From the NCBI GenBank assembly GCA_025356505.1, contig JANXSV010000186.1, forward strand, positions 1 through 10,614: 10,614 bases of DNA. The letters run 5' to 3'. This DNA is from Methylovirgula sp. (GTDB lineage Bacteria > Pseudomonadota > Alphaproteobacteria > Rhizobiales > Beijerinckiaceae). Shown here piece by piece: positions 442 through 10,614 of the stretch (positions are counted from its first letter, which is position 1; the number at the start of each line of letters is the position of its first letter). The notes below the pieces were generated by a model. The model was given only the letters and a program-made list of their open reading frames with translations, searched no databases and was not told the origin of the DNA. Position numbers and translations under genes: made by a program.

Positions 442-516
442 TGGGGCGTCGCCAAGCGGTAAGGCACCGGATTTTGATTCCGGTATGCGGAGGTTCGAAT
501 CCTCCCGCCCCAGCCA
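442..516 (+). tRNA. tRNA-Gln (anticodon TTG), CCA encoded
   Basis: The full cloverleaf can be folded by eye. The acceptor stem TGGGGCG (442-448) pairs with CGCCCCA (506-512), the anticodon stem CCGGA/TCCGG flanks a seven-base loop TTTTGAT with anticodon TTG at 474-476, and the T arm is GGAGG-TTCGAAT-CCTCC. The discriminator G and CCA follow at 513-516. Anticodon TTG reads CAA (Gln). The gene is intact although an integrase follows it directly, as expected when an integrating element restores the 3' end of the tRNA it uses as its target. No T-rich terminator hairpin is visible immediately downstream. Confidence 0.96.
489..516 (+). other. Likely attachment site (attL) within the 3' part of tRNA-Gln
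   Basis: Tyrosine integrases of islands and phages commonly recombine in the T arm/acceptor end of a tRNA gene, and the integrase downstream is oriented outward from this tRNA. The element boundary should therefore lie somewhere in the T arm to the CCA. I found no second copy of this 3' end inside the window, so the partner site (attR) would be beyond it. Exact limits are inferred. Confidence 0.4.
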
Positions 517-570
517 GTTTTATCTAAGACATTGATATTGCTGACGTATTCCTCCTGACTGGGAATCAAA

Positions 571-601
571 ATGTACTAGTGTACATCGGATTGTACCAGT
601 G
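571..601 (+). repeat. Paired repeats upstream of the integrase (possible operator or integrase-binding sites)
   Basis: A six-base inverted repeat ATGTAC-TAGT-GTACAT occupies 571-586. Overlapping it, TGTACTAGTG (572-581) recurs as TGTACCAGTG (592-601), nine of ten bases identical with a 20-base period, which is about two helical turns. They lie between the tRNA and the integrase start, where both arm-type integrase sites and autoregulatory operators are usual. Binding is an inference. Confidence 0.45.
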
Positions 602-657
602 AGTGTGCAGAGGAGTTGTTGGCGCTGCGCGCAACCCAAATTGATGGGGGTTGTAAG

Positions 658-2784
658 TTGCCAATTTGTTCCCATTTTTATCGTCGTGGTGCCATCTATT
701 GGTGGCGCAAATCGGTCTCATGCTCGGTAACCAAGCAACGAATCGTTGTGGCGATGAGCTTAGGGACAAAGGAGCCGAAAGCCGCCAAGTATCTGGCGGC
801 TCATATGGGTGTGTTTGCGTTAGAGTTGGAGCACGATATGAGTGTCAGTGTGGAAAGAGCAGAAGTGGTTAAACAGCGTTTTCAAGAAAAACTTGAAACG
901 TATCGCAAAAGTTACAAGCAGCTGGATATTATACGGCTATACCAAGATCTCACTTTGCCTCTTCCTAGCCGTTTTAGTTCACACAAACACATGTTTAAAC
1001 ACCGTGCTGGCGAGTTTCGCATTTTTGGCGCGCTCTATGAATTGGCCGAAAGATATGGCTCTGACTGCGCCTATACCACTGAAATTGACTTAGAACTGCG
1101 GAACAAGAACTTAACCGATTTCGAACGCGATAAGGTCAAGCATCGCATGGGACACGGCATCATTAAGCGCTTTTTGACACCAAATTTTGACGGCGTTGAC
1201 ATGATTAAATTTCCGATTGTCCAGCAATGGGTGCTCGATCGAAACAACGGTAAGCCGATGAAAAATCCTGAGGGACTATTGCGGTTATTTGCAGGTGAAC
1301 GAAGCGTTTTTGTGAAATATATGGCCGCCAATTATGAGGCGGCAGTAGACAATGATGCTCGGGTGCTATGTGACATTGCACCAGTTGCGCGTGAGATGGC
1401 TGGGAAATATGCGATCGATGAGCGCCTCCCTGAATTTGTCTTTTCCGATGTTTTTGGGAGCGGGCACATACGACCTTTGTCAGGTCGCGATGATCTAAAG
1501 CCGCACAATCAAAATTCTGAAATTCCAGAAGCAAAAGCAACGAATGAACAAACTCAATCTTCACCGATAGAAACGGTTGAACCGGAATGTGCGATCACCA
1601 ATGGTACAATGCTAAAAAACGAAGATGACTTGCCAAATTTTGTCAATTCGGCCCCACCACCAGCAAATCCTTCTTCAAATTCCGTGACTTTGCCACAAGG
1701 CAATTCACAACCGCAAAATGGTTCTTGCGGCATTAAAGAGCTTGGAAAATCTCTTGAAAGCAAGCGACAAAAAGAAAGGAGTTGGGACAACAAATCCTGC
1801 CGTCAGGCGGCCAGCTCATTTGGGCTGTTTGATAAATTTCTGACAGAAGAATGCAAAATTAGCTCTGTTAGCCAGATAGGTCAGAAACACCTGGCGCAAT
1901 TTGTCAATTTTCTGCAATTTGAGATTTATACGCATTACGGCAAAAGTGCGAGTGATCACGATAAAAGCATAGCGGTATTGCGCAAGATTGCTCAAGGCAA
2001 GGATAAGTCTCAACGCGGAATTCAAGCAGCTACGCTTAATCGTCACCTGACGTTCTTAAACCAGCTCATCAAATATATTCCCAGCCAGGGCTCTAAATTT
2101 TCAGAGCCACTTTTGACCGGAGAACTTCGCGCAAGAAACACAACTCACACTCGCCCTCGTGATCAGCGCGCCAAAGCGACACCGGATCTGATGAGACAGG
2201 TGTTTCAGACGCCGCCTTTTACCGGCTGCGAATCTTGGCAAAAGCCGAGTAATGCAGGCAAAGTCGTTTATCATAGAGCATTGTACTTTGCTGTCCTGCT
2301 CCTGAATTATAGTGGCGCACGCCGCGAAGAAATATGCGGACTGCATGTGGATGACTTGATCCAGGAGAGTGGCAAGCAGCCATATCTGAGTTTGGATTTT
2401 AGTGACATTCGCCGTCTGAAAAACCCGCAGTCAGTTAGAATAATGCCGATCCATTCGGAATTGATCAGATTGGGGTTTCTCGAATATTGCAATCGAATCA
2501 AAGAATTGGGATATGAACGCATTTTCCCTGATCTTCATTCGGGAACAAGTCAATCGCCTGCAGGCGATCGGCTGTACGACGAATTTGCCCCCCTTCTCAA
2601 GGGGTTGGATAGAGGTAAAAAGAACCTAGTTATTCACTCACTTAGGCATGGATTTGCCTCAAGCTTAAAACACAATCTGGTCGACAAAGAGGTTCGAGCT
2701 GATTTGTTAGGCCATGGCGGTGAATCGGAGACAGACGAACGTTACAGTGAAGCCTACGCTTGGAAGAAGCTCTGCAATTTATAA
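658..2784 (+). CDS. Large tyrosine site-specific recombinase (island integrase), C-terminal tail frameshifted
   Basis: Site-specific DNA recombinase of the tyrosine integrase family, presumed to integrate/excise the element at the adjacent tRNA-Gln. TTG at 658 is chosen because GGGGG lies seven bases upstream and the product opens MPICSHFYRRGAIYWWRKSV, the short N-terminal domain typical of this integrase type; an open frame continues back to TTG at 616. With this start (708 aa) there is an N-terminal region to about residue 290, a Pro/Asn/Ser/Gln-rich linker to about 375, a SAM-like core-binding domain at roughly 376-480, and the catalytic domain at about 515-700. The catalytic set is visible: R555 (SGARREEI), K588, H660 and R663 (HSLRH), H686 (LLGHGG) and Y696 (ERYSE). 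The last seven residues, from W702, appear out of frame: the next frame restores a 58-residue tail (see separate entry). G+C is lower than in nagZ. Confidence 0.88.
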   Translation: MPICSHFYRRGAIYWWRKSVSCSVTKQRIVVAMSLGTKEPKAAKYLAAHMGVFALELEHDMSVSVERAEVVKQRFQEKLETYRKSYKQLDIIRLYQDLTLPLPSRFSSHKHMFKHRAGEFRIFGALYELAERYGSDCAYTTEIDLELRNKNLTDFERDKVKHRMGHGIIKRFLTPNFDGVDMIKFPIVQQWVLDRNNGKPMKNPEGLLRLFAGERSVFVKYMAANYEAAVDNDARVLCDIAPVAREMAGKYAIDERLPEFVFSDVFGSGHIRPLSGRDDLKPHNQNSEIPEAKATNEQTQSSPIETVEPECAITNGTMLKNEDDLPNFVNSAPPPANPSSNSVTLPQGNSQPQNGSCGIKELGKSLESKRQKERSWDNKSCRQAASSFGLFDKFLTEECKISSVSQIGQKHLAQFVNFLQFEIYTHYGKSASDHDKSIAVLRKIAQGKDKSQRGIQAATLNRHLTFLNQLIKYIPSQGSKFSEPLLTGELRARNTTHTRPRDQRAKATPDLMRQVFQTPPFTGCESWQKPSNAGKVVYHRALYFAVLLLNYSGARREEICGLHVDDLIQESGKQPYLSLDFSDIRRLKNPQSVRIMPIHSELIRLGFLEYCNRIKELGYERIFPDLHSGTSQSPAGDRLYDEFAPLLKGLDRGKKNLVIHSLRHGFASSLKHNLVDKEVRADLLGHGGESETDERYSEAYAWKKLCNL

Positions 2785-2939
2785 ATAAATTGCCCAATGT
2801 TACCGATCATCTTGAGAAACAGCCACTGAAGCTCCTGCCATGGGTGGAAAAAAAGCAACAACCGCCGTTTTCCCAACCCAAGCGATCCGGCAAAACAAGA
2901 ACTTGGAAGACAAAGGATGAGCTGCAACACCATCATTGA
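2763..2939 (+). pseudogene. Displaced C-terminal tail of the integrase (-1 frameshift remnant)
   Basis: Shifted from the integrase frame, 2763-2939 reads 58 codons to a TGA at 2937 and begins EEALQFINKLPNVTDHLEKQ, then PLKLLPWVEKKQQPPFSQPK. A helix followed by an 'LP.VT.HL....L.LLPWVE' segment after the catalytic tyrosine is, as I recall, the normal tail of such integrases, so this looks like coding sequence separated by loss of one base (probably a T before TGG at 2761, which would restore ...SEAYALEEALQ...). The catalytic tyrosine is upstream of the break and unaffected. A sequencing error is the alternative explanation. Confidence 0.6.
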
Positions 2940-3244
2940 AACTTATCTTGGCCTTCCATGCTTACAAGGAGCACAGTCCAATTTGGGCAAAAGCGATTGA
3001 TATGGATCGTGTCGTCGATGGAACGCTTGGTAATTGTCGGTTGAGGTATTTGGCCTGTGGTGGGTAGAAAACAGTCACAGACCAAATTGAAGCGCACCGA
3101 TTCGTAAGCAATTTCGATACCCCGTTCGTGCAGCAAATCCTCGACATTGCGCAAGGACAATGGGTATCGGACATACATCATCACTGCCGGACGGATGATC
3201 TCAGGCGAAGTTTTGGCATAACGAAATATGCGGGGTTCAGCCAT
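2933..3244 (-). pseudogene. Truncated IS6-family transposase
   Basis: Fragment of a DDE transposase. From ATG at 3244-3242 the product starts MAEPRIFRYAKTSPEIIRPA and continues through YVRYPLSLRNVEDLLHERGI to YESVRF (ending near base 3089). This is the N-terminal helix-turn-helix region of IS6-family (IS26-like) transposases, about 50 residues. After that the frame stays open to 2933 but family similarity stops. The whole catalytic DDE domain (normally ending near 230-240 aa) is missing, so the element cannot encode its own transposition. An in-frame GTG at 3250 is an alternative start. The ATG lies 59 bases inside the terminal repeat at 3303, a normal leader length for IS6 elements. Confidence 0.75.
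2940..3085. other. Unassigned junction segment between integrase remnant and IS6 remnant
   Basis: No intact gene and no convincing RNA or repeat is seen here. On the minus strand the transposase frame stays open through it (to 2933), but the encoded residues no longer resemble an IS6 transposase. The other frames carry stops or lack recognisable motifs. It is probably debris from earlier insertions or deletions. Confidence 0.35.
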
Positions 3245-3303
3245 GGCCACGATCTTATCGCCATGCCATCAGCCAGGCAGCCTGATTTTCCTCTAACAGT
3301 GCC
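3086..3303 (-). mobile_element. IS6-family insertion sequence remnant (left end only)
   Basis: The segment carries one terminal repeat at 3290-3303, the leader and the first ~50 codons of an IS6-type transposase, then loses recognisable IS sequence. No second terminal repeat (GGCACTG...) is visible on the integrase side, so the element is a one-ended remnant, likely produced by a later deletion. Its intact edge abuts and invades the 3' end of idi. Its position between the integrase and the photosystem marks this as a rearrangement point. Confidence 0.65.
3290..3303 (-). repeat. IS6-type terminal inverted repeat
   Basis: Read on the minus strand from 3303 the sequence is GGCACTGTTAGAGG. Its first nine bases match the start of the IS26 terminal repeat (GGCACTGTTGCAAA, from memory). 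It sits 59 bases before the transposase ATG, and the idi stop codon falls inside it at 3295-3293. A perfect 8-bp target duplication cannot be tested because the other IS end is missing. Confidence 0.6.
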
Positions 3304-4330
3304 TATCGATGAGCAGCGGGGCCTGTCTGAGCTGATCTAGATTTTGAGATCCGGTGCAAAAAGCAGTAACCCGTAATTCTTCAATGATAGCCTCAAATTG
3401 AACCTGTAAACCCAGCCGTCCTTGTAGGGTTTGCTCCAAAATTGACCCGGCAAATCCGACCATATTTGCACCGAGCCTCAAAGCCTTCGCGGCGTCCAAG
3501 CCGTTGCGCATCCCGCCCGAAGCAATCAAGGATATATGTGGTAGGGCGGCGCGCGCGTCTCTTATGGCTTGAGCAGTGGGTATGCCCCAGTCCCGGAACG
3601 TTTCCGCGATGTTACGGGATTTTTGAGGTGATGCACTTTCAGCCACCACTGCAGCCCAACTCGTGCCGCCAGCGCCGGCAATATCGATGATATTGACGCC
3701 CACCGCGTTCAATTTGACAGCCACGGCAGCGGATATGCCGCAACCTATTTCTTTGACAACAATGGGGCAAGGAAGGGCTGTTACCGCCTCTTCTATGCGG
3801 TTAAGGACACCTTTCCAATTTCGGTCGCCATTGTCTTGAAGAACTTCCTGCAGAGGGTTCAAGTGAATTATCAGGGCATCAGCCTCTATCATGTCTATGG
3901 CGCGATTGAGATACTCTACGCCCTTCCAGTCATGCAACTGCGCGGCCCCGATATTTGCAAGAATAGGGACGTCAGGAGCTCGCCGCCTCAGGTCTTTGCT
4001 AAATCCAGACGCATTTGCTGTCTCTAAAGCAATGCGTTGGGAACCCACCGCGAAGGCGAGGCCAAGTGATTGGGCGACCTCGGCCAACGTCGTGTTTATA
4101 GCCTCGGCTCGGCTTGGCCCCCCGGTCATAGAACTGATCAATAAGGGCGCGCGGCATTTGCGCCCAAGAAACGTGCAACTCAAGTCGATGGCGGCAAAGT
4201 CCACTTCGGGCAGGGCGTTGTGTGCGAACCTGATCGTTTCGAAGCCGGTGCTGGTGTAACGCGTAGCCACGTCACGGCGGAGCACTGTCTCGAGCTGATC
4301 TAGTTTTGCTTGGGCGCGATCATCATCCAT
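3293..4330 (-). CDS. fni: Type-2 isopentenyl-diphosphate isomerase (IDI-2), 3' end fused to IS
   Basis: FMN-dependent isomerase interconverting IPP and DMAPP; here it balances the C5 units for carotenoid synthesis. The 345-aa product is a complete TIM barrel of IDI-2 type: LLISSMTGGP (63-72, flavin binding), GSQRIALE (96-103), NIGAAQL (126-132), IHLNPLQE (155-162) with Q161/E162 matching the conserved catalytic/Mg-binding pair, VVKEIGCGIS (191-200), IDIAGAGGTSW (215-225), and GMRNGLDAAKAL / GFAGSIL for the FMN phosphate. ATG at 4330 overlaps the end of blh by 8 nt. The final residues (R-H-C) and the TAG stop are encoded at or inside the IS6 terminal repeat, so the native last few codons are lost; the barrel itself appears whole. 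It is the last gene of the operon and has no visible terminator of its own. The class is also called idi2. Confidence 0.92.
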   Translation of the reverse strand: MDDDRAQAKLDQLETVLRRDVATRYTSTGFETIRFAHNALPEVDFAAIDLSCTFLGRKCRAPLLISSMTGGPSRAEAINTTLAEVAQSLGLAFAVGSQRIALETANASGFSKDLRRRAPDVPILANIGAAQLHDWKGVEYLNRAIDMIEADALIIHLNPLQEVLQDNGDRNWKGVLNRIEEAVTALPCPIVVKEIGCGISAAVAVKLNAVGVNIIDIAGAGGTSWAAVVAESASPQKSRNIAETFRDWGIPTAQAIRDARAALPHISLIASGGMRNGLDAAKALRLGANMVGFAGSILEQTLQGRLGLQVQFEAIIEELRVTAFCTGSQNLDQLRQAPLLIDRHC

Positions 4331-5210
4331 GAATTTCTGCCTTCATCCAGCCTGAAACCCTAGCCTGTTCCACTAGCGCCATATGCGGCACAGTCAGAGC
4401 GGCGAGTCCTACAAAGATGAATTGTACAATTCGACTGTCGATGGAAGATTCGGGAAAGTATCTCCAAGATATGAGGGAGAGGGCCAAAACACCAGCCATG
4501 GGCACGGTGGCCGCCAATGATAAAAACGTTGGCGATGCATTGCCTGCCAATTTTAGTGTTCGCATCACATGGCGGGCACTGTGCATGGTGCAAAAGAAGA
4601 CCGTAAACGCAATCAGGGGGGGGGCAGCTACGGCTAAAAGAGTAAGCGCAGCCAGTTCGAAAGCGGTGAATTTATCAATTTTAAGTTCGGCTGCAATGGA
4701 GACGCAGCATGCGAACAACCAGGGCCATGACAATAATTTAAGACCGAAAGTCACGGAATGGGCGGCAGAGCTGCCGCCCAGAAGTGTAAAAAGTTGCGAA
4801 ACCTCCTCTGAATGCAGCGTCAGGGGTAGAATCAGAATTGCGCCTCCATAGACGACTTGCACTGGCCACGGTGTTCCTCCCGCAAGATCGCCGGAAAAGT
4901 GAGCCATCGATATCAGCAAAAATCCGCACAGAAAAACAAAAGGTGAAAGCAGCCAAATGCCGACTACGACTAAGGCAAGGCAAAGATAGACGATTGAAAA
5001 CACCGTCCACTGCAATGGGGTACGGGTATTGTAAATTTGTTTTGCAAAAATGGTGTCGAGTGCCCCGTGCGGGACGCCAAGTGTAACGATGAGCACTGCT
5101 AAGATAATCAACTCTGTTTGGGGGCTCAGCCGAGCGAACAGCAATGATGATAAAGCTGTGCCAAGCGCCAAGATGCTGAAAAGTACGCCTTGGATACGGA
5201 ATGCATTCAT
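4323..5210 (-). CDS. blh: Blh/Brp-like beta-carotene 15,15'-dioxygenase
   Basis: Integral membrane enzyme that cleaves beta-carotene centrally into two retinals, the chromophore for the rhodopsin at the head of the cluster. The 295-aa product is strongly hydrophobic throughout, with multiple predicted membrane helices. The histidines expected to hold the active-site iron are present: H48 (GVPHGALD), H104 (MAHFSGDL), H210 and H214 (TMHSARH); H276 (TVPHMAL) is also conserved-looking. Spacing matches Blh proteins of marine proteorhodopsin clusters. The ATG at 5210 overlaps the crtY stop as ATGA, and the 3' end overlaps idi by 8 nt, so it is translationally coupled on both sides. A nine-C run on the coding strand lies in the A-A-P-P-L segment (residues 196-199). 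Confidence 0.93.
   Translation of the reverse strand: MNAFRIQGVLFSILALGTALSSLLFARLSPQTELIILAVLIVTLGVPHGALDTIFAKQIYNTRTPLQWTVFSIVYLCLALVVVGIWLLSPFVFLCGFLLISMAHFSGDLAGGTPWPVQVVYGGAILILPLTLHSEEVSQLFTLLGGSSAAHSVTFGLKLLSWPWLFACCVSIAAELKIDKFTAFELAALTLLAVAAPPLIAFTVFFCTMHSARHVMRTLKLAGNASPTFLSLAATVPMAGVLALSLISWRYFPESSIDSRIVQFIFVGLAALTVPHMALVEQARVSGWMKAEIHG
4616..4624. repeat. Nine-base G/C homopolymer inside blh
   Basis: Nine consecutive G on the plus strand (nine C on the coding strand) within the codons for Ala-Ala-Pro-Pro-Leu of blh. Frame is maintained with nine bases. Tracts of this length are prone to slippage; a change of one base would truncate the retinal-forming enzyme. Confidence 0.9.
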
Positions 5211-6403
5211 CGCGTCGACCGTTCAACACTGATTGAGAAAACACTCAAAACTTTCCTCCGCAATTCGCTGAGGAATGGCCGCGCAGGCAAGGCCAGCACG
5301 ATGGAAAGGCAATCCAAAAACGACGGGTTGTCGCTCATGAACCGGATGAGCCGCTTTGGTTTCGTGTTTTTAAACACACTGTAAAATAAATCCGGCGCAA
5401 GCGCCGGGTGCCGCGCTAATACCGACAGAAAAAGATTATCCATCCAGCTCAAAAAGACAGGATCCCGTGGGTGCATGGTTGGCAGACCACCCTCAGCGAG
5501 TTGCGCGGCACACGAAGCGGCCCATCGCTGAATTCTTTGAAAGGCATACCCGGTACTGGGACGTGCAGCCCCTGCGTGAAGTCCTACGCGCACATAGGTA
5601 CCGCTTTTTTCGCAAATGGGTTCCGAAGCACTCATAGGAAGTATGCCGTGTTCAGAGCGTATTATTTGAAAACCTCGGCCTGCTACGCGGCTTTTGACTG
5701 CTTTGTCGCAATCGGCCTTGAGACTATCCCGGCTTTTTGGGCTGGTTGAAAACACGGTATGTTCCACCAGCGCCCGTCGGCTTGAAGAGGGCAGGACATA
5801 TGTAAATCGTATCGTATCAGTCAAATATGCAGTAAAATCCATCAAAGTTGCGACAGTTGGGTCGAAAATATCTGAATCGCATTCGATTTCTTGGCCGTAA
5901 AATGACTGCCACATTCGACTATCACGCTCTCGCAGGTCAGTGGATGGCCGGGAGTCAACAACCATGCACGCCTGAAAATCTCCTCGATCCGTCTTAAGGT
6001 GCCAGGAACCCTCGATGCGCCGTGGCTGATCTAAAACTGAAACAGATTTGAGGAGCCGAATTTGCGGACAGGCAGCGATCGATGCCTCGGCAGCTGTGTA
6101 GAATGCAGACGATGGCATAAGTTGATAGGGCGCATCACGGCAGTCCATCGTCGTTGCAGCGGTTAAAGACTTAACTTGAACTTTGTTCCATTGACTTTCA
6201 ACCATATGGTCAAATTTCAGCTTCTCATCCCGCCAAAAACACCAAGTTCGGTCGTTTTCATATTCAGTACGGCTTTCGAGCACCAAAACCGAAAGTTGGA
6301 GCGACTGCCTAGCGGCCAACTGCGTCGCCAGAGAAAGTCCGGCGCAACCACCGCCGATAATAATTAGGTCTACCTTTGTGGACGTGGGGAGTGAACTATC
6401 CAT
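5207..6403 (-). CDS. crtY: Lycopene beta-cyclase (CrtY type)
   Basis: Cyclises both ends of lycopene to give beta-carotene. The product (398 aa from ATG 6403) opens with a dinucleotide-binding fold, LIIIGGGCAGLSLATQLAAR, with GGGCAG at 17-22. Then come TWCFWRDE (53-60), the family segment FTYVLPSSSRRALVEHTVFS, HGILPMS, and VRVGLHAGAARPSTGYAF near the C-terminal third, all typical of FAD-containing CrtY cyclases. The frame is open a further 27 codons upstream (to 6484), but that would lie inside crtB; ATG 6403 gives a normal N-terminus and an 8-nt overlap with the crtB stop, the same size as the blh-idi overlap. The TGA overlaps the blh ATG. No strong ribosome-binding site is visible, consistent with coupled translation. 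Confidence 0.92.
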   Translation of the reverse strand: MDSSLPTSTKVDLIIIGGGCAGLSLATQLAARQSLQLSVLVLESRTEYENDRTWCFWRDEKLKFDHMVESQWNKVQVKSLTAATTMDCRDAPYQLMPSSAFYTAAEASIAACPQIRLLKSVSVLDQPRRIEGSWHLKTDRGDFQACMVVDSRPSTDLRERDSRMWQSFYGQEIECDSDIFDPTVATLMDFTAYLTDTIRFTYVLPSSSRRALVEHTVFSTSPKSRDSLKADCDKAVKSRVAGRGFQIIRSEHGILPMSASEPICEKSGTYVRVGLHAGAARPSTGYAFQRIQRWAASCAAQLAEGGLPTMHPRDPVFLSWMDNLFLSVLARHPALAPDLFYSVFKNTKPKRLIRFMSDNPSFLDCLSIVLALPARPFLSELRRKVLSVFSISVERSTR

Positions 6404-7355
6404 GCGATCCAATTTCCACGACATGCGCACATGGAAGACCTGCGAGATCCCGATGGAGTTTTGCATCGTGTTCTGCTTGAACATGCCAGAAAGACGGCGT
6501 GCAGACAGACATGGCGAGCGAACGCGCCGTAATCATCGCCTTTGACCGCGAGGATACGGTTGTGCGTGCCTTCCAGTAGGCAAAATGATTTGCTTTTAAC
6601 TGGACGCCAATCTGCCGATATATCTGCGATGCAACGACAATTCCGCTGCGTGCCCCTAGCGGCAGAAAAGCCAAACCCGCCATGCCACTCGAATAGTAAT
6701 TTTCCGCCATTTCCAACAGCCTCGCCAAAGCCGCTTCGATTCTGGGAGTTCCTTGCGGTGCGGGTGACCTTAACGCACTTGGGTCTACATCTCCCACCAA
6801 GCTGGCCGGCAAATACCTTCGCCCCAGATTTGCATCCTCCTTCACATCCCGGCAAATGTTGGTGAGTTGCATGGCTATCCCAAGATCAATCGCGTGAGGC
6901 ATGGCAACTGGATCTCGGACATCGAGGACGGCGCACATCATGATACCGACCGTCCCCGCTACTCGAAAGCAGTATCTGAGCAACTCTGGCTCATCGGCAA
7001 TTCGCACTGTCTCAAGATCAGATGCTACGCCACGAATGAGCTCAAGTATCGCCTCTCTATAAATGTGACATTCATCAATCAACTGAAGGGCATCATTTAC
7101 AATTGCGTCTTCGGATCGTCGCGTAATGACGGCTGTTTCCACGCTTTTTAAAGCGGTTTTAGCGGCATCGGGTGAGGTCGCCTCGTCAACCAGGTCGTCC
7201 AAATATCGGCAAAAACGATAGAGGCGGGTTGCGCGCCTCGCATGGATATCGCTGAGCAAATGGCTAGCCCAATAAAAACTCTTACCTTTCGCCGCTAGAA
7301 TAGTTTTTGCTTGCTGGAAATCTGTTTCAGAAGACGTGGTGATGGCATCGCTCAT
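6396..7355 (-). CDS. crtB: Phytoene synthase
   Basis: Condenses two GGPP head-to-head into phytoene, the first committed C40 step. The 319-aa protein has both aspartate-rich Mg-binding motifs of the squalene/phytoene synthase family: RFCRYLDDLVDEA (residues 47-59, D53/D54/D57) and LTNICRDVKEDANLGRRYLP (164-183, D170/D174). Length is normal. The ATG at 7355 forms an ATGA overlap with the crtI stop, and its own stop overlaps crtY by 8 nt, which places it firmly in the operon. The last ~40 residues are less conserved in character than the core but remain in frame. Confidence 0.95.
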   Translation of the reverse strand: MSDAITTSSETDFQQAKTILAAKGKSFYWASHLLSDIHARRATRLYRFCRYLDDLVDEATSPDAAKTALKSVETAVITRRSEDAIVNDALQLIDECHIYREAILELIRGVASDLETVRIADEPELLRYCFRVAGTVGIMMCAVLDVRDPVAMPHAIDLGIAMQLTNICRDVKEDANLGRRYLPASLVGDVDPSALRSPAPQGTPRIEAALARLLEMAENYYSSGMAGLAFLPLGARSGIVVASQIYRQIGVQLKANHFAYWKARTTVSSRSKAMITARSLAMSVCTPSFWHVQAEHDAKLHRDLAGLPCAHVVEIGSHG

Positions 7356-8839
7356 AGCTGTGCCGCCGACGGAATAAGAGCATCAACCACTTTCGCAGAG
7401 CACAAAACGCCAGGCAGACCGCCGCCTGGATGAGTGCCTGCGCCAGTGAGATAGAGGTTTTTTATTCCTTCAGCCCGATTGTGAAACCGAAACCAGGCGG
7501 ATTGCCGAAAGAGTGGCGCAATGGAAAAGCCCGCGCCGTTGACACTTAGATAGTCGTTCCGGAAGTTTTCAGGCGTCATGTAAAAGTCAGATGTTATTGA
7601 AGATTTTAGGCCCGGCAAGATCGTTTCGTCCAGCGCCGAAATGATACGATCTTGAAGCCGCGGGCCTTGTACGTCCCAATCGATATGGCCAAGCAGATTT
7701 GGAACCGGACACAAGACATAGAAACTGTCACAACCCTCTGGCGCAAAGCTTGCGTCCGTTGCGGTAGGGCGATGGAGGTATAGCGAAAAATCTTTGGCCA
7801 ATATTTTTTGATTGAATATATCCTCGAGCAACTCTCGATAGCGGCCTCCCATCCATATCGTGTGGTGAGCAACCTTTGGATATGTGCGCGTAGTTCCGAA
7901 GAAAATGACGAACAGACCCATAGAATAGTGCGCTGCGCCCAGCTTTAGCTTTACAGCAGCAGACTGCTGTTTTTTCTCAACCATATTCTTGTAAACGTGA
8001 GCAGGGTCAGCATTGGAGATGATGAGATCAGCGGTTAGAAGTGTGCCGTCTTCGAGAGTTACCCCTGTCGCTGAACCGTCTTCTATGATGATCCGTGACA
8101 CCGTTGTCCCGAATTGTAGGCGGATGCCCTGCCTCAGCATGAGAGATTTTAAAGCCTGGGTAATTGCTCCGGTGCCCCCCATAGCGAAGTGAACTCCATA
8201 GGCACGTTCCAGATAGTGAATCAGGCCATATATGCTTGTTGTGTCAAACGGATTTCCACCTACAAGCAGAGGTTGGATAGAAAATGCCTGCCGCAGTTTC
8301 GGATTTTTCAGATATTTCGAAACCAACTGCCAGACCGTTTTGTAGCTCTGAAGCCGTACCAAGCTGGGTATCTGCTGCAGCATCGTCACAAAGCGGTCGA
8401 ACGGACGCGCTGAAAGCTGCGTGAATGCCACATCAAAAATGCGCTTCGAGTGGTCAAGGAGGGCCAGATAACCCTCTTTGTCGCCGGGCTCTATGCGCTC
8501 AATCTCTGCCAAAGTTTGCTCGATCGTGCCTCCATAGTCGAACGTATCGCCGTCTGCAAAGCGAAAGCGGTACCAAGGCGTAAGAGGCACGAGCGAAATG
8601 TGATCTGATAGCTTCTCGTTGAACAGCGCAAAAAGCTCATCCAGTAAAAAAGGCGCGGTAATGACTGTGGGCCCCGCGTCGTGGCGAAAGCCATTGCGCT
8701 CAAAAACTTGGGCGCGGCCCCCCACGTCCGCGCAGCGGTCTATGACTGTGACAGCATAACCTTTGGCGCGCAGTCTTAACGCTGCTGCCATGCCGCCGAA
8801 CCCTGCACCAATAACCAAAGCAGACTTAGTGTTACGCAT
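7352..8839 (-). CDS. crtI: Phytoene desaturase (CrtI type)
   Basis: FAD-dependent desaturase that converts phytoene to lycopene by successive dehydrogenations. The 495-aa protein starts with ALVIGAGFGGMAAALRLRAK (GAGFGG at 11-16), then VIDRCADVGGRA and FRHDAGPTVI, and ends with LYLTGAGTHPGGGLPGVLCS (about 462-481), the hallmark C-terminal flavin segment of bacterial CrtI. Size matches the family (about 490-510 aa). The number of desaturation steps cannot be read from sequence, but the crtY and blh partners imply lycopene as product. ATG 8839 lies two bases after the crtE stop; its TGA overlaps crtB as ATGA. Confidence 0.96.
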   Translation of the reverse strand: MRNTKSALVIGAGFGGMAAALRLRAKGYAVTVIDRCADVGGRAQVFERNGFRHDAGPTVITAPFLLDELFALFNEKLSDHISLVPLTPWYRFRFADGDTFDYGGTIEQTLAEIERIEPGDKEGYLALLDHSKRIFDVAFTQLSARPFDRFVTMLQQIPSLVRLQSYKTVWQLVSKYLKNPKLRQAFSIQPLLVGGNPFDTTSIYGLIHYLERAYGVHFAMGGTGAITQALKSLMLRQGIRLQFGTTVSRIIIEDGSATGVTLEDGTLLTADLIISNADPAHVYKNMVEKKQQSAAVKLKLGAAHYSMGLFVIFFGTTRTYPKVAHHTIWMGGRYRELLEDIFNQKILAKDFSLYLHRPTATDASFAPEGCDSFYVLCPVPNLLGHIDWDVQGPRLQDRIISALDETILPGLKSSITSDFYMTPENFRNDYLSVNGAGFSIAPLFRQSAWFRFHNRAEGIKNLYLTGAGTHPGGGLPGVLCSAKVVDALIPSAAQL

Positions 8840-8841
8840 AT

Positions 8842-9768
8842 TTAAGTTCGGCTGGCTAATTGGAGCGCCATGCTTTTCAAAAGGAAGCCCGAAGCCTTTG
8901 GAAGCGAAGCTGCTATCGTGGCAGCTGATTTAAGATGTTCCATGGCGGCTTCAAGCGCCACTTGCTCGGCGCTGTCGCTGTCACCAATTGCGCGCAGGAC
9001 GAGCACCGCATTTGCGCAATTGGCTGCTTTGCCGCGATTGCTGTCACTATCAACGTCTGCGAGATCGTCGAGTATCTGATACCCGACCGCGAAAGCATTT
9101 GCAGCTGCGACCGCTGGCTCAACGCTGTCCGCTCGATCTGCTGCAGTAAAAACAAGTTCGAAAGGTAATCTCAGCAGTGCGCCAGACTTTGCTGAGGCAA
9201 CTGCTTTGTAATCATCAAAACTAGGGATAATCGCTGTAGCGCTATGTTCAGAACACTGCCCATGAACTAGCGTCGAGACGCAAGTATGTACCAAGGTTAG
9301 GAGTTTAGGCAGTTTGGTAACATCGCTCATCGAAGTCAGAGCCGCGTAACCTGCAGACAACAAGAGGTCACCAGCGCAAATGGCAACGTTGTGACCATAC
9401 AAAGCCCACACAGATTTTTGGCCTCTGCGCTCAATGGCTTTATCATGGATGTCATCATGCACAAGTGATGCATTATGAATGAGCTCTACCACCGAGGCTA
9501 TGGCGACCGCATCGTGAGCAGACAGTTTCATAGAGAGCGCTACATGAAGCGCGAGGCGAGCCCTTATCCTTTGGCCTCCCGAAGCGATGTGATAATTCGC
9601 TGCTTCGTGAGCTGTTGACGGGTTAAGTCCGGCACTGAAGGCGAGAAGGTCTGCCATGGTATTTTCGACTTCGGGCAAAAGTGGGTCCGAGGTCGAGATG
9701 CCAGAAGAGACAGTCGGTTCGTGTCTGGAAAGCTCTGACACCTTCTCTGTTGCCGCTTGTGCGTGCAT
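8842..9768 (-). CDS. crtE: Geranylgeranyl diphosphate synthase (CrtE)
   Basis: Trans-prenyltransferase extending FPP/DMAPP with IPP to GGPP for phytoene synthesis. From ATG 9768 (GGTGGGGGA just upstream as ribosome-binding site) the product is 308 aa. Both Asp-rich motifs are present: LVHDDIHDKAIERRG (DDIHD at 105-109) and GYQILDDLADVDSD (QILDD, D234-D238). The usual GGKRIRP motif reads GGQRIRA (about 64-70), so the IPP-phosphate-binding Lys is replaced by Gln and Pro by Ala. The frame is open upstream to 9882, but that stretch (Lys/Gly/Ser-rich, overlapping the intergenic hairpin) is not typical and the ATG has the better start context. It is the first biosynthetic gene after the rhodopsin, 118 nt downstream of its stop. 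Confidence 0.93.
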   Translation of the reverse strand: MHAQAATEKVSELSRHEPTVSSGISTSDPLLPEVENTMADLLAFSAGLNPSTAHEAANYHIASGGQRIRARLALHVALSMKLSAHDAVAIASVVELIHNASLVHDDIHDKAIERRGQKSVWALYGHNVAICAGDLLLSAGYAALTSMSDVTKLPKLLTLVHTCVSTLVHGQCSEHSATAIIPSFDDYKAVASAKSGALLRLPFELVFTAADRADSVEPAVAAANAFAVGYQILDDLADVDSDSNRGKAANCANAVLVLRAIGDSDSAEQVALEAAMEHLKSAATIAASLPKASGFLLKSMALQLASRT

Positions 9769-9796
9769 TGTTCCCCCACCGACTTTGTCCTTCTTT

Positions 9797-9825
9797 TTGA
9801 CAGAACGCCAAACGAGGACTTTAAC
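9797..9825 (+). promoter_or_regulatory. Candidate antisense promoter between rhodopsin and crtE
   Basis: On the plus strand TTGACA (9797-9802, perfect -35) and TTTAAC (9820-9825, 4 of 6 to TATAAT) are exactly 17 bases apart. Transcription would start near 9832 and run through the hairpin at 9843-9874 to T6 at 9883-9888, antisense to the end of the rhodopsin message. This is a pattern match only and may be chance. Confidence 0.25.
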
Positions 9826-9842
9826 CTTTCCGGTATTTTTTG

Positions 9843-9874
9843 AAGTGCACCCGGGCGAAGTGCCGGGTGCACTT
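9843..9874. terminator. Intergenic hairpin after the rhodopsin gene
   Basis: A perfect 12-bp inverted repeat, AAGTGCACCCGG / CCGGGTGCACTT, with an 8-base loop, begins 13 bases after the rhodopsin stop (9889-9887). On the rhodopsin-coding strand it is followed by C and A6, not a U tract, so it is not a classic intrinsic terminator in that direction; a mRNA-stabilising or attenuating role is likely. On the plus strand a T6 tract follows after eight bases. Either way it separates rhodopsin expression from the crt genes. Confidence 0.6.
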
Positions 9875-9886
9875 GATCTCACTTTT

Positions 9887-10614
9887 TTACTTTACGGCCG
9901 CGTTGTCAGTCTCACTAACCGCAACGCTCCAGATGATTACGCCAAAGGCAATCTTATTCAAAACGTCAGCAAGATTGTAAATGACGTTCAAAGCTTTCAT
10001 GCTGTCTGCGGGATTTGCACCCGTGAGATACCCGAAAAAGTAGCCAATAGGATAAATTGCCCAGCCGAAAGTCACAATCAAACGCATCAAACGGAAGGCC
10101 GCCTGTACGGATGCTGGTGCTTTTTCTGCATTGATTTTGCCAGCTTCGCCGGCAAAGATTTCATACAGAATAAAGGCCCAACCGATCATGCCAACAATAA
10201 ACGCTGGCCAAACGCCGACATAACCGGCCTCACCAACATAACCGCCGATGAGCATAACGAGTGTACCAATCATCAGGCGCCAAAACACACCGCCTGGAAC
10301 TTTGGTGATTGCTGACAAGATCAGATAAAACTCGATCATCAGCAGTGGTACAGTGATGAGCCAGTCAATATAGCGGAAAACGGTTGGTGTTGAACCCGTC
10401 GTAACCCAGACGTCACGCATATAGAAGTAGTGTACTGCTGCGACCAGTGTCACAAGTCCCGACACTGTAAGAGAAGTTTTCCATTTTCCAGAAACGCGTT
10501 GTGTTTCAAGGAAGAAAAACGCTGTCGATGCGACCAATGCCATCGATATAAACCAAAACGATATGCCTACAAAGTCTTTCGGATCTAATGTAGCTCCGGC
10601 TGCAAATGCAGGGC
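9887..10614 (-). CDS. Proteorhodopsin, green-type light-driven proton pump (5' end outside window)
   Basis: Seven-helix retinal protein that pumps protons outward in light. The frame is open to the window edge, so the start and most of the signal peptide are missing; 241 codons are visible beginning PAFAAGATLDPKDF, which looks like the signal-peptide end. ATG 10543 is an internal Met in helix A. Key residues by comparison with the SAR86 EBAC31A08 protein: counter-ion His (H75 equivalent) in AAVHYFYMRDVW; RYIDWLITVPLLMIEFYL gives the proton acceptor Asp (D97 equivalent, codon 10366-10364), Leu at tuning position 105 (10342-10340) and proton donor Glu (E108, 10333-10331); retinal Lys (K231 equivalent, 9955-9953) in LADVLNKIAFG. 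DTE-type motif plus Leu predicts a green-absorbing proton pump. It heads the crt-blh-idi operon, separated from crtE by 118 nt with a hairpin. Confidence 0.95.
   Translation of the reverse strand, partial: PAFAAGATLDPKDFVGISFWFISMALVASTAFFFLETQRVSGKWKTSLTVSGLVTLVAAVHYFYMRDVWVTTGSTPTVFRYIDWLITVPLLMIEFYLILSAITKVPGGVFWRLMIGTLVMLIGGYVGEAGYVGVWPAFIVGMIGWAFILYEIFAGEAGKINAEKAPASVQAAFRLMRLIVTFGWAIYPIGYFFGYLTGANPADSMKALNVIYNLADVLNKIAFGVIIWSVAVSETDNAAVK

Follow-up and report, generated by a model that had tools for sequence, protein, structure and literature searches.

The window analyzed here is an entire contig of 10,614 bases from the draft genome of an uncultured Methylovirgula sp. (JANXSV010000186.1; C28 in our numbering, in which contigs are denoted C, genomes G, and loci L). 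It carries a tRNA-Gln gene, a tyrosine integrase gene, and a proteorhodopsin–retinal operon, which probably belong to an integrative island inserted at tRNA-Gln, the phototrophy operon being its cargo. The draft genome comprises 2.57 Mb in 453 contigs, with an estimated completeness of 97.2% and an estimated contamination of 1.6%. tRNA genes were called with ARAGORN, and protein families were assigned with Pfam and NCBIfam profiles at curated cut-offs. The integrase and each enzyme and rhodopsin frame passed the curated Pfam cut-offs, indicating that the gene calls are not due to chance. An original prediction, made from the sequence of the window, had named an intact tRNA-Gln and an outward-pointing tyrosine integrase, and both were confirmed. 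Two copies of an attachment (att) sequence are present in the genome, one at tRNA-Gln (attL) and one on a second contig, C371 (attR). Their orientation fits the two ends of an element, a step in guanine-plus-cytosine (GC) content lies at attR, and the operon shares one contig with the integrase and attL, with no att copy in between. These results suggest that C28 and C371 may be the two ends of a single element and that the operon came with it.

The original prediction had proposed a search for a further copy of the 3′ end of tRNA-Gln, and the result was positive. When the genome was searched with positions 442–3000, the sole extra match was an exact 23-bp copy of tRNA-Gln positions 53–75 at C371:7469–7491 on the minus strand. 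By our own arithmetic, chance would produce another exact 23-mer about 7e-8 times in 2.57 Mb on both strands. C371 (8,941 bases) contains no tRNA gene, and the repeat lies in the attR orientation. Read in the tRNA orientation, the contig shows 1,450 bases, then the repeat, and then a major facilitator superfamily (MFS) sugar-transporter gene; this order of island, core, and chromosome is the layout expected of an attR. Transposase-like fragments at the island end of C371, with weak matches of the insertion sequence (IS) types IS1 and IS6, fit a mobile region. When the core was taken as the last 17 nt with at most one mismatch, only two sites were found in the genome, on C28 and C371. As a control, the 23-bp pattern (at most one mismatch) was present in 33 of 59 other genomes, in a single copy in 32 of these 33. 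The exception was a member of the same family (G027), which has a whole tRNA-Gln (L233/L283; C33:16122–16196) plus one tRNA-less partial 3′ copy (L234; C56:161719–161741), apparently another island that arose independently at a site of this kind. An att repeat between the integrase and idi, which the original prediction had set out as evidence against a single island, was looked for and was absent.

When C371 was read in reverse, the single point that best divided it by GC content was position 1457, which belongs to the repeat (1451–1473); the GC content is 0.462 before this point and 0.559 after it. The host baseline was taken from 22 readable contigs (136,690 bases; mean 0.536, per-contig standard deviation 0.026). 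Five of these were included on account of their IS copies, and the baseline may be lower for that reason. The GC content of the integrase region (0.459) was under that of all 446 host windows of equal size, and that of the C371 island end (0.463) fell in the lowest 1.7% of 537 host windows. A low GC content of the cassette as a sign of foreign origin was rejected, as it was seen with 8 readable contigs and was gone with 22.

Homologues of the integrase were searched across the order in 396 further genomes (E ≤ 1e-30), and seven were found, five of them at the 3′ end of tRNA-Gln. Four of these adjoin an intact tRNA-Gln (G562 (46% identity), G527, G500, and G553 (tRNA-Gln(ctg))), and the fifth (G596) adjoins a 23-bp copy of a tRNA-Gln(ctg) 3′ end without the remaining tRNA. 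Two of these genomes, G500 and G553, have an exact repeat of the final 17 nt of tRNA-Gln down-island on the same strand, approximately 56 kb and 22 kb away, respectively. In G596, the 3′-end copy lies at C24:72765–72787 (L262) and the whole tRNA-Gln(ctg) on C54 (L263), possibly reflecting tandem islands. There were also 26 weaker integrase loci, 14 of which were run through ARAGORN: 2 were at tRNA-Gln, 8 at tRNA-Met/Ala/Glu/Ser/Gly, and 4 at none. Since the nearer homologues sit at tRNA-Gln and the weaker ones at mixed sites, the preference for tRNA-Gln belongs to the nearer integrase lineage. The five tRNA-Gln elements come from other families; they resemble C28 in having a homologous integrase (35–46% identity over the C-terminal half), whereas no rhodopsin-operon gene was found in the stretches read. 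In the 722-aa frame, the residues that we take to be catalytic (R569, K602, H674, R677, H700, and Y710) are all present, and the N terminus has a weak DUF6538 match below the cut-off. Six plasmid records (E ≤ 1e-20; best 33.5% identity over 48% of the query) and two phage records (E ≤ 1e-10) matched the integrase, and no pattern match was found in viral contigs.

Based on this arrangement, the integrase may recombine the terminal bases of tRNA-Gln with an identical sequence on the incoming element, using a core of at most 23 bp and probably approximately the last 17. Recombination would rebuild the tRNA at the left end, where attL lies, and leave the 23-bp copy at the right end as attR on C371. 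The operon would lie inside, beside the integrase, and would provide proteorhodopsin, five genes leading from geranylgeranyl diphosphate (GGPP) to retinal, and idi, which would feed the precursor. The island would then measure at least approximately 11.5 kb, of which C28 would hold 10.1 kb and C371 1.45 kb, its middle being on neither contig; two related elements span approximately 56 and 22 kb.

The rhodopsin, crtE, crtI, crtB, crtY, and blh genes lie on one strand in the canonical order of a proteorhodopsin–retinal operon. With the longest frames taken, all six gene junctions of the cassette overlap or have a gap of at most 4 bases, which suggests a single operon transcribed from the rhodopsin end. 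The cassette had been described as complete. All seven genes are indeed present, but because the window is the whole contig, the rhodopsin is cut off at its 5′ end, and "complete" is not quite right. Read by eye, the rhodopsin translation has residues that we presume to be typical of green proton pumps (RYIDW...TVPLL...E).

Related rhodopsin loci were taken as the best 80 of 518 candidates, in which the rhodopsins have 77–88% identity. The records are labeled Betaproteobacteria, Alphaproteobacteria, Verrucomicrobia, and others, the titles of metagenome bins being unreliable as organism names. The order rhodopsin-crtE-crtI-crtB-crtY-blh was found in 46 of the 80 loci, and in 17 the other five genes were all unmatched in the stretch examined, some loci being short. 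Rhodopsins approximately 79–83% identical with crtEIBY and blh unmatched were observed in L078–L080, L083–L085, L087, L092, L095, L117, L135, and L141, which are labeled Alphaproteobacteria except for L078 (proteobacterium). Only one of the 80 loci, L077, has idi, and there it stands at the operon end. L077 comes from G120, a member of the window's family. Among 297 other genomes of the family, a rhodopsin (E ≤ 1e-10) was found in nine, of which only that of G120 is close (89%), the rest being 26–36% identical. The G120 operon occupies a different locus, amid transporter- and oxidoreductase-like frames (labels from reading translations), and no tRNA was found in the 40 kb examined. The L077 genome was rejected as a close relative, as its nagZ is just 49% identical (G322) and its operon lies elsewhere. 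In a rhodopsin tree of 86 rows, built by a quick method, the window fell together with L077, L082, Alphaproteobacteria, and Verrucomicrobia in a group that was not resolved further. Within the family, the distribution of the trait is patchy, and the rhodopsin tree alone proves no particular transfer. On plasmids, eight rhodopsin records were found, all below 60% identity. In 4 of 66 eligible loci (L125, L135, L144, and L147), a tRNA gene lies upstream of the rhodopsin at a distance of no more than 1 kb, against an expectation of approximately 1.2 (20 tRNAs in 1.098 Mb); L144 and L147 are near relatives, and the excess is hence weak.

The IS6 remnant named by the original prediction was borne out by an NCBIfam match to an IS6 transposase (profile positions 1–45 of 202, E 8.3e-10), which is below the whole-protein cut-off. 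The remnant, of approximately 214 bases, terminates at 3303, the point at which other genomic copies stop as well, and is truncated near 3090 on the integrase side. The idi frame aligns with its L077 homologue through residue 340, where the L077 idi ends. In the window, idi extends five residues beyond this point, and the last two of them plus the stop codon are IS sequence, indicating that the native idi stop is gone. At least five further copies of the same IS6-type sequence were found in the genome (C413, C113, C272, C161, and C358; L199–L203), 75–87% alike over 52–214 bases, an old IS burden in a small genome.

Several observations weigh against the island. The draft assembly is fragmented, and a search of contig ends for overlap found no bridging contig joining C28 and C371. 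The best GC split of positions 1–2784 of the window falls at 149 and not at attL, and the GC content of the operon (0.515) is ordinary, with 16.9% of 65 host windows equal or lower. The degraded IS6 remnant lies between the integrase and the operon, and an integrase homologue was found at none of the 80 related rhodopsin loci. Among the integrase relatives, G562 and G527 show no second repeat in the approximately 6.8 and 3.0 kb before their contigs end, G501 has no tRNA in its 1.5-kb integrase flanks, and the match in G496 begins near the contig start and is thus cut off. An empty site was not seen among the relatives compared. None of these belongs to the same genus, and neither the surroundings of tRNA-Gln in 20 members of the family (up to approximately 8 kb per side, some cut by contig ends) nor the MFS loci of six relatives had neighbors in common with C28 or C371; the comparison therefore says nothing on an empty site. 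The left end of C28 begins within a minus-strand gene that the original prediction called nagZ; this candidate has a weak Glyco_hydro_3 match under the Pfam cut-off, and nagZ was matched in 284 of 297 other genomes of the family.

The position of the IS6 remnant raises the question of whether the operon was present from the start. In a real island, the operon could have been joined later by an IS6-type event, with insertion at the idi end followed by deletion or cointegrate formation. The IS end coincides with the 3′ end of idi, whose stop codon it supplies, the same IS occurs in at least five other contigs, the GC content of the operon is nearer to that of the host than that of the integrase is, and the integrase relatives lack such an operon in the stretches read. 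However, the L077/G120 operon, the only other close one in the family, also ends with idi, which indicates that idi is a member of the operon and was not captured at C28. The remnant itself is truncated, and the order of events is thus unreadable. On balance, we regard later joining as unlikely. The original prediction had also named a fortuitous juxtaposition by IS-mediated deletion as an alternative. A deletion of this kind running from the island into the chromosome should have taken attR with it; with attR present, an IS deletion would have to lie within the island or come with a further rearrangement.

It is improbable that the operon and the integrase are fortuitous neighbors and that an old chromosomal operon outside attL–attR was moved beside an island remnant by IS-mediated deletion or inversion. 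A plain deletion from island to chromosome should remove attR, but exactly one attR-like copy persists, and the DNA on its island side is low in GC. No att copy lies between the integrase and idi, and an inversion or translocation would additionally be needed. The IS6 remnant at the junction, the ordinary GC content of the operon, and the fragmented assembly are compatible with such a juxtaposition. An assembly or binning artifact, in which C28 misjoins two organisms or C371 comes from another organism with a similar tRNA-Gln, is very improbable. Related rhodopsins are common in lake metagenomes, the contig ends inside the rhodopsin gene, and the tRNA-Gln end is identical in many relatives. 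Against this, the junction IS recurs within the same genome, the chromosomal part of C371 (GC content 0.558) and the nagZ side (0.567) fit the host, the contamination estimate is low, and the operon is no near-copy of the listed relatives (best rhodopsin 88%; crtE 32–47%). The arrival of the phototrophy module as one island, as originally predicted, is partly supported by the attR copy, the GC boundary, an integrase lineage that sits at tRNA-Gln, and the absence of a repeat between the integrase and idi; a joint arrival of operon and integrase is something we infer. Overall, the island is better supported than it was from the sequence of the window alone.

A close precedent is the Tardiphaga locus, so that C28 would join a known type of rhodopsin island. 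In Tardiphaga isolates and metagenome-assembled genomes (MAGs) from glaciers, a xanthorhodopsin operon is found at tRNA-Lys or tRNA-Glu and is accompanied by a tyrosine integrase, repeats, and IS elements; transfer is supported by a MAG that lacks the operon (PMC7701988). The two loci share a rhodopsin operon near a tRNA, crtEIBY plus a retinal gene, a tyrosine-type integrase, repeats, IS elements, and an alphaproteobacterial host. They differ in that C28 has a proteorhodopsin at tRNA-Gln; in that for Tardiphaga a xanthorhodopsin transposon with repeats near the integrase was described, whereas in C28 the 3′ end of the tRNA forms the repeat and idi is in the operon; and in that an operon-free MAG exists for Tardiphaga and no empty site was seen for C28 (PMC7701988). 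The freshwater proteorhodopsin operons of the 80 loci commonly share the gene order of C28, but they have no integrase, and idi occurs only in L077. In Great Lakes Nitrosospira, the accessible part of the report describes a proteorhodopsin module in a variable region, horizontally acquired and most similar to Polynucleobacter; like C28, it is a freshwater module, but that part reports no att sites or integrase (PMC9239080). The proteorhodopsin cluster of Vibrio campbellii is flanked by transposases and was horizontally acquired (PMC3380642), and transfer was inferred for the xanthorhodopsin of Octadecabacter (PMC3646047). In PMC3478194, proteorhodopsin is named in the reference list only. The open-licence full texts searched yielded no account of a proteorhodopsin operon with tRNA-Gln attachment repeats at its borders, which is not proof of absence.

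It is possible, and we suggest this tentatively, that the element is still excisable and carries a complete light-energy package (proteorhodopsin, the retinal pathway, and idi), with an integrase whose lineage occupies tRNA-Gln in several families of the order. If so, a single site-specific recombination at tRNA-Gln would turn a heterotroph into a photoheterotroph. The horizontal spread of proteorhodopsin is held largely from gene trees, and a vehicle with att sites would make the mechanism testable. Beyond the xanthorhodopsin of Tardiphaga, C28 would add a case with proteorhodopsin, where the tRNA 3′ end serves as the repeat and integrase relatives support the choice of site.

Coordinates of the features on contig C28 (positions of the window, with strand and basis of the assignment)
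Feature	Position	Strand	Basis or remark
tRNA-Gln(ttg), intact; putative integration target	442..516	+	ARAGORN
Putative attL core, final 23 nt of tRNA-Gln	494..516	+	Exact repeat at C371:7469–7491 (minus strand)
Tyrosine integrase, 722-aa frame	616..2784	+	Phage_integrase PF00589 above cut-off; start somewhere in 616–724
Spacer between integrase and IS remnant	2785..3089	.	No family match among the listed frames above 60 aa
IS6-family remnant, inner part missing; outer end within idi 3′ end	3090..3303	-	NCBIfam
idi, type 2 isopentenyl-diphosphate isomerase; stop codon from IS end	3293..4330	-	Pfam and NCBIfam above cut-off
blh, beta-carotene 15,15′-dioxygenase (retinal formation)	4323..5210	-	Pfam and NCBIfam above cut-off
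crtY, lycopene cyclase	5207..6484	-	Pfam above cut-off; NCBIfam below cut-off
crtB, phytoene synthase	6396..7355	-	Pfam
crtI, phytoene desaturase	7352..8839	-	Pfam and NCBIfam above cut-off
crtE, polyprenyl (GGPP) synthase	8842..9882	-	Pfam
Proteorhodopsin, 5′ end cut by contig end	9887..10612	-	Pfam

On the chromosome side of the putative attR, positions 732–5979 of C371 (L003) contain the MFS transporter gene, a DUF3833 gene, and a flavin adenine dinucleotide (FAD)-dependent amine oxidoreductase-like gene. Two further genes in this stretch encode photolyase FAD-binding domains, together with a photolyase N-terminal domain in one case. These photolyase-domain genes are light related, yet they lie outside the island.

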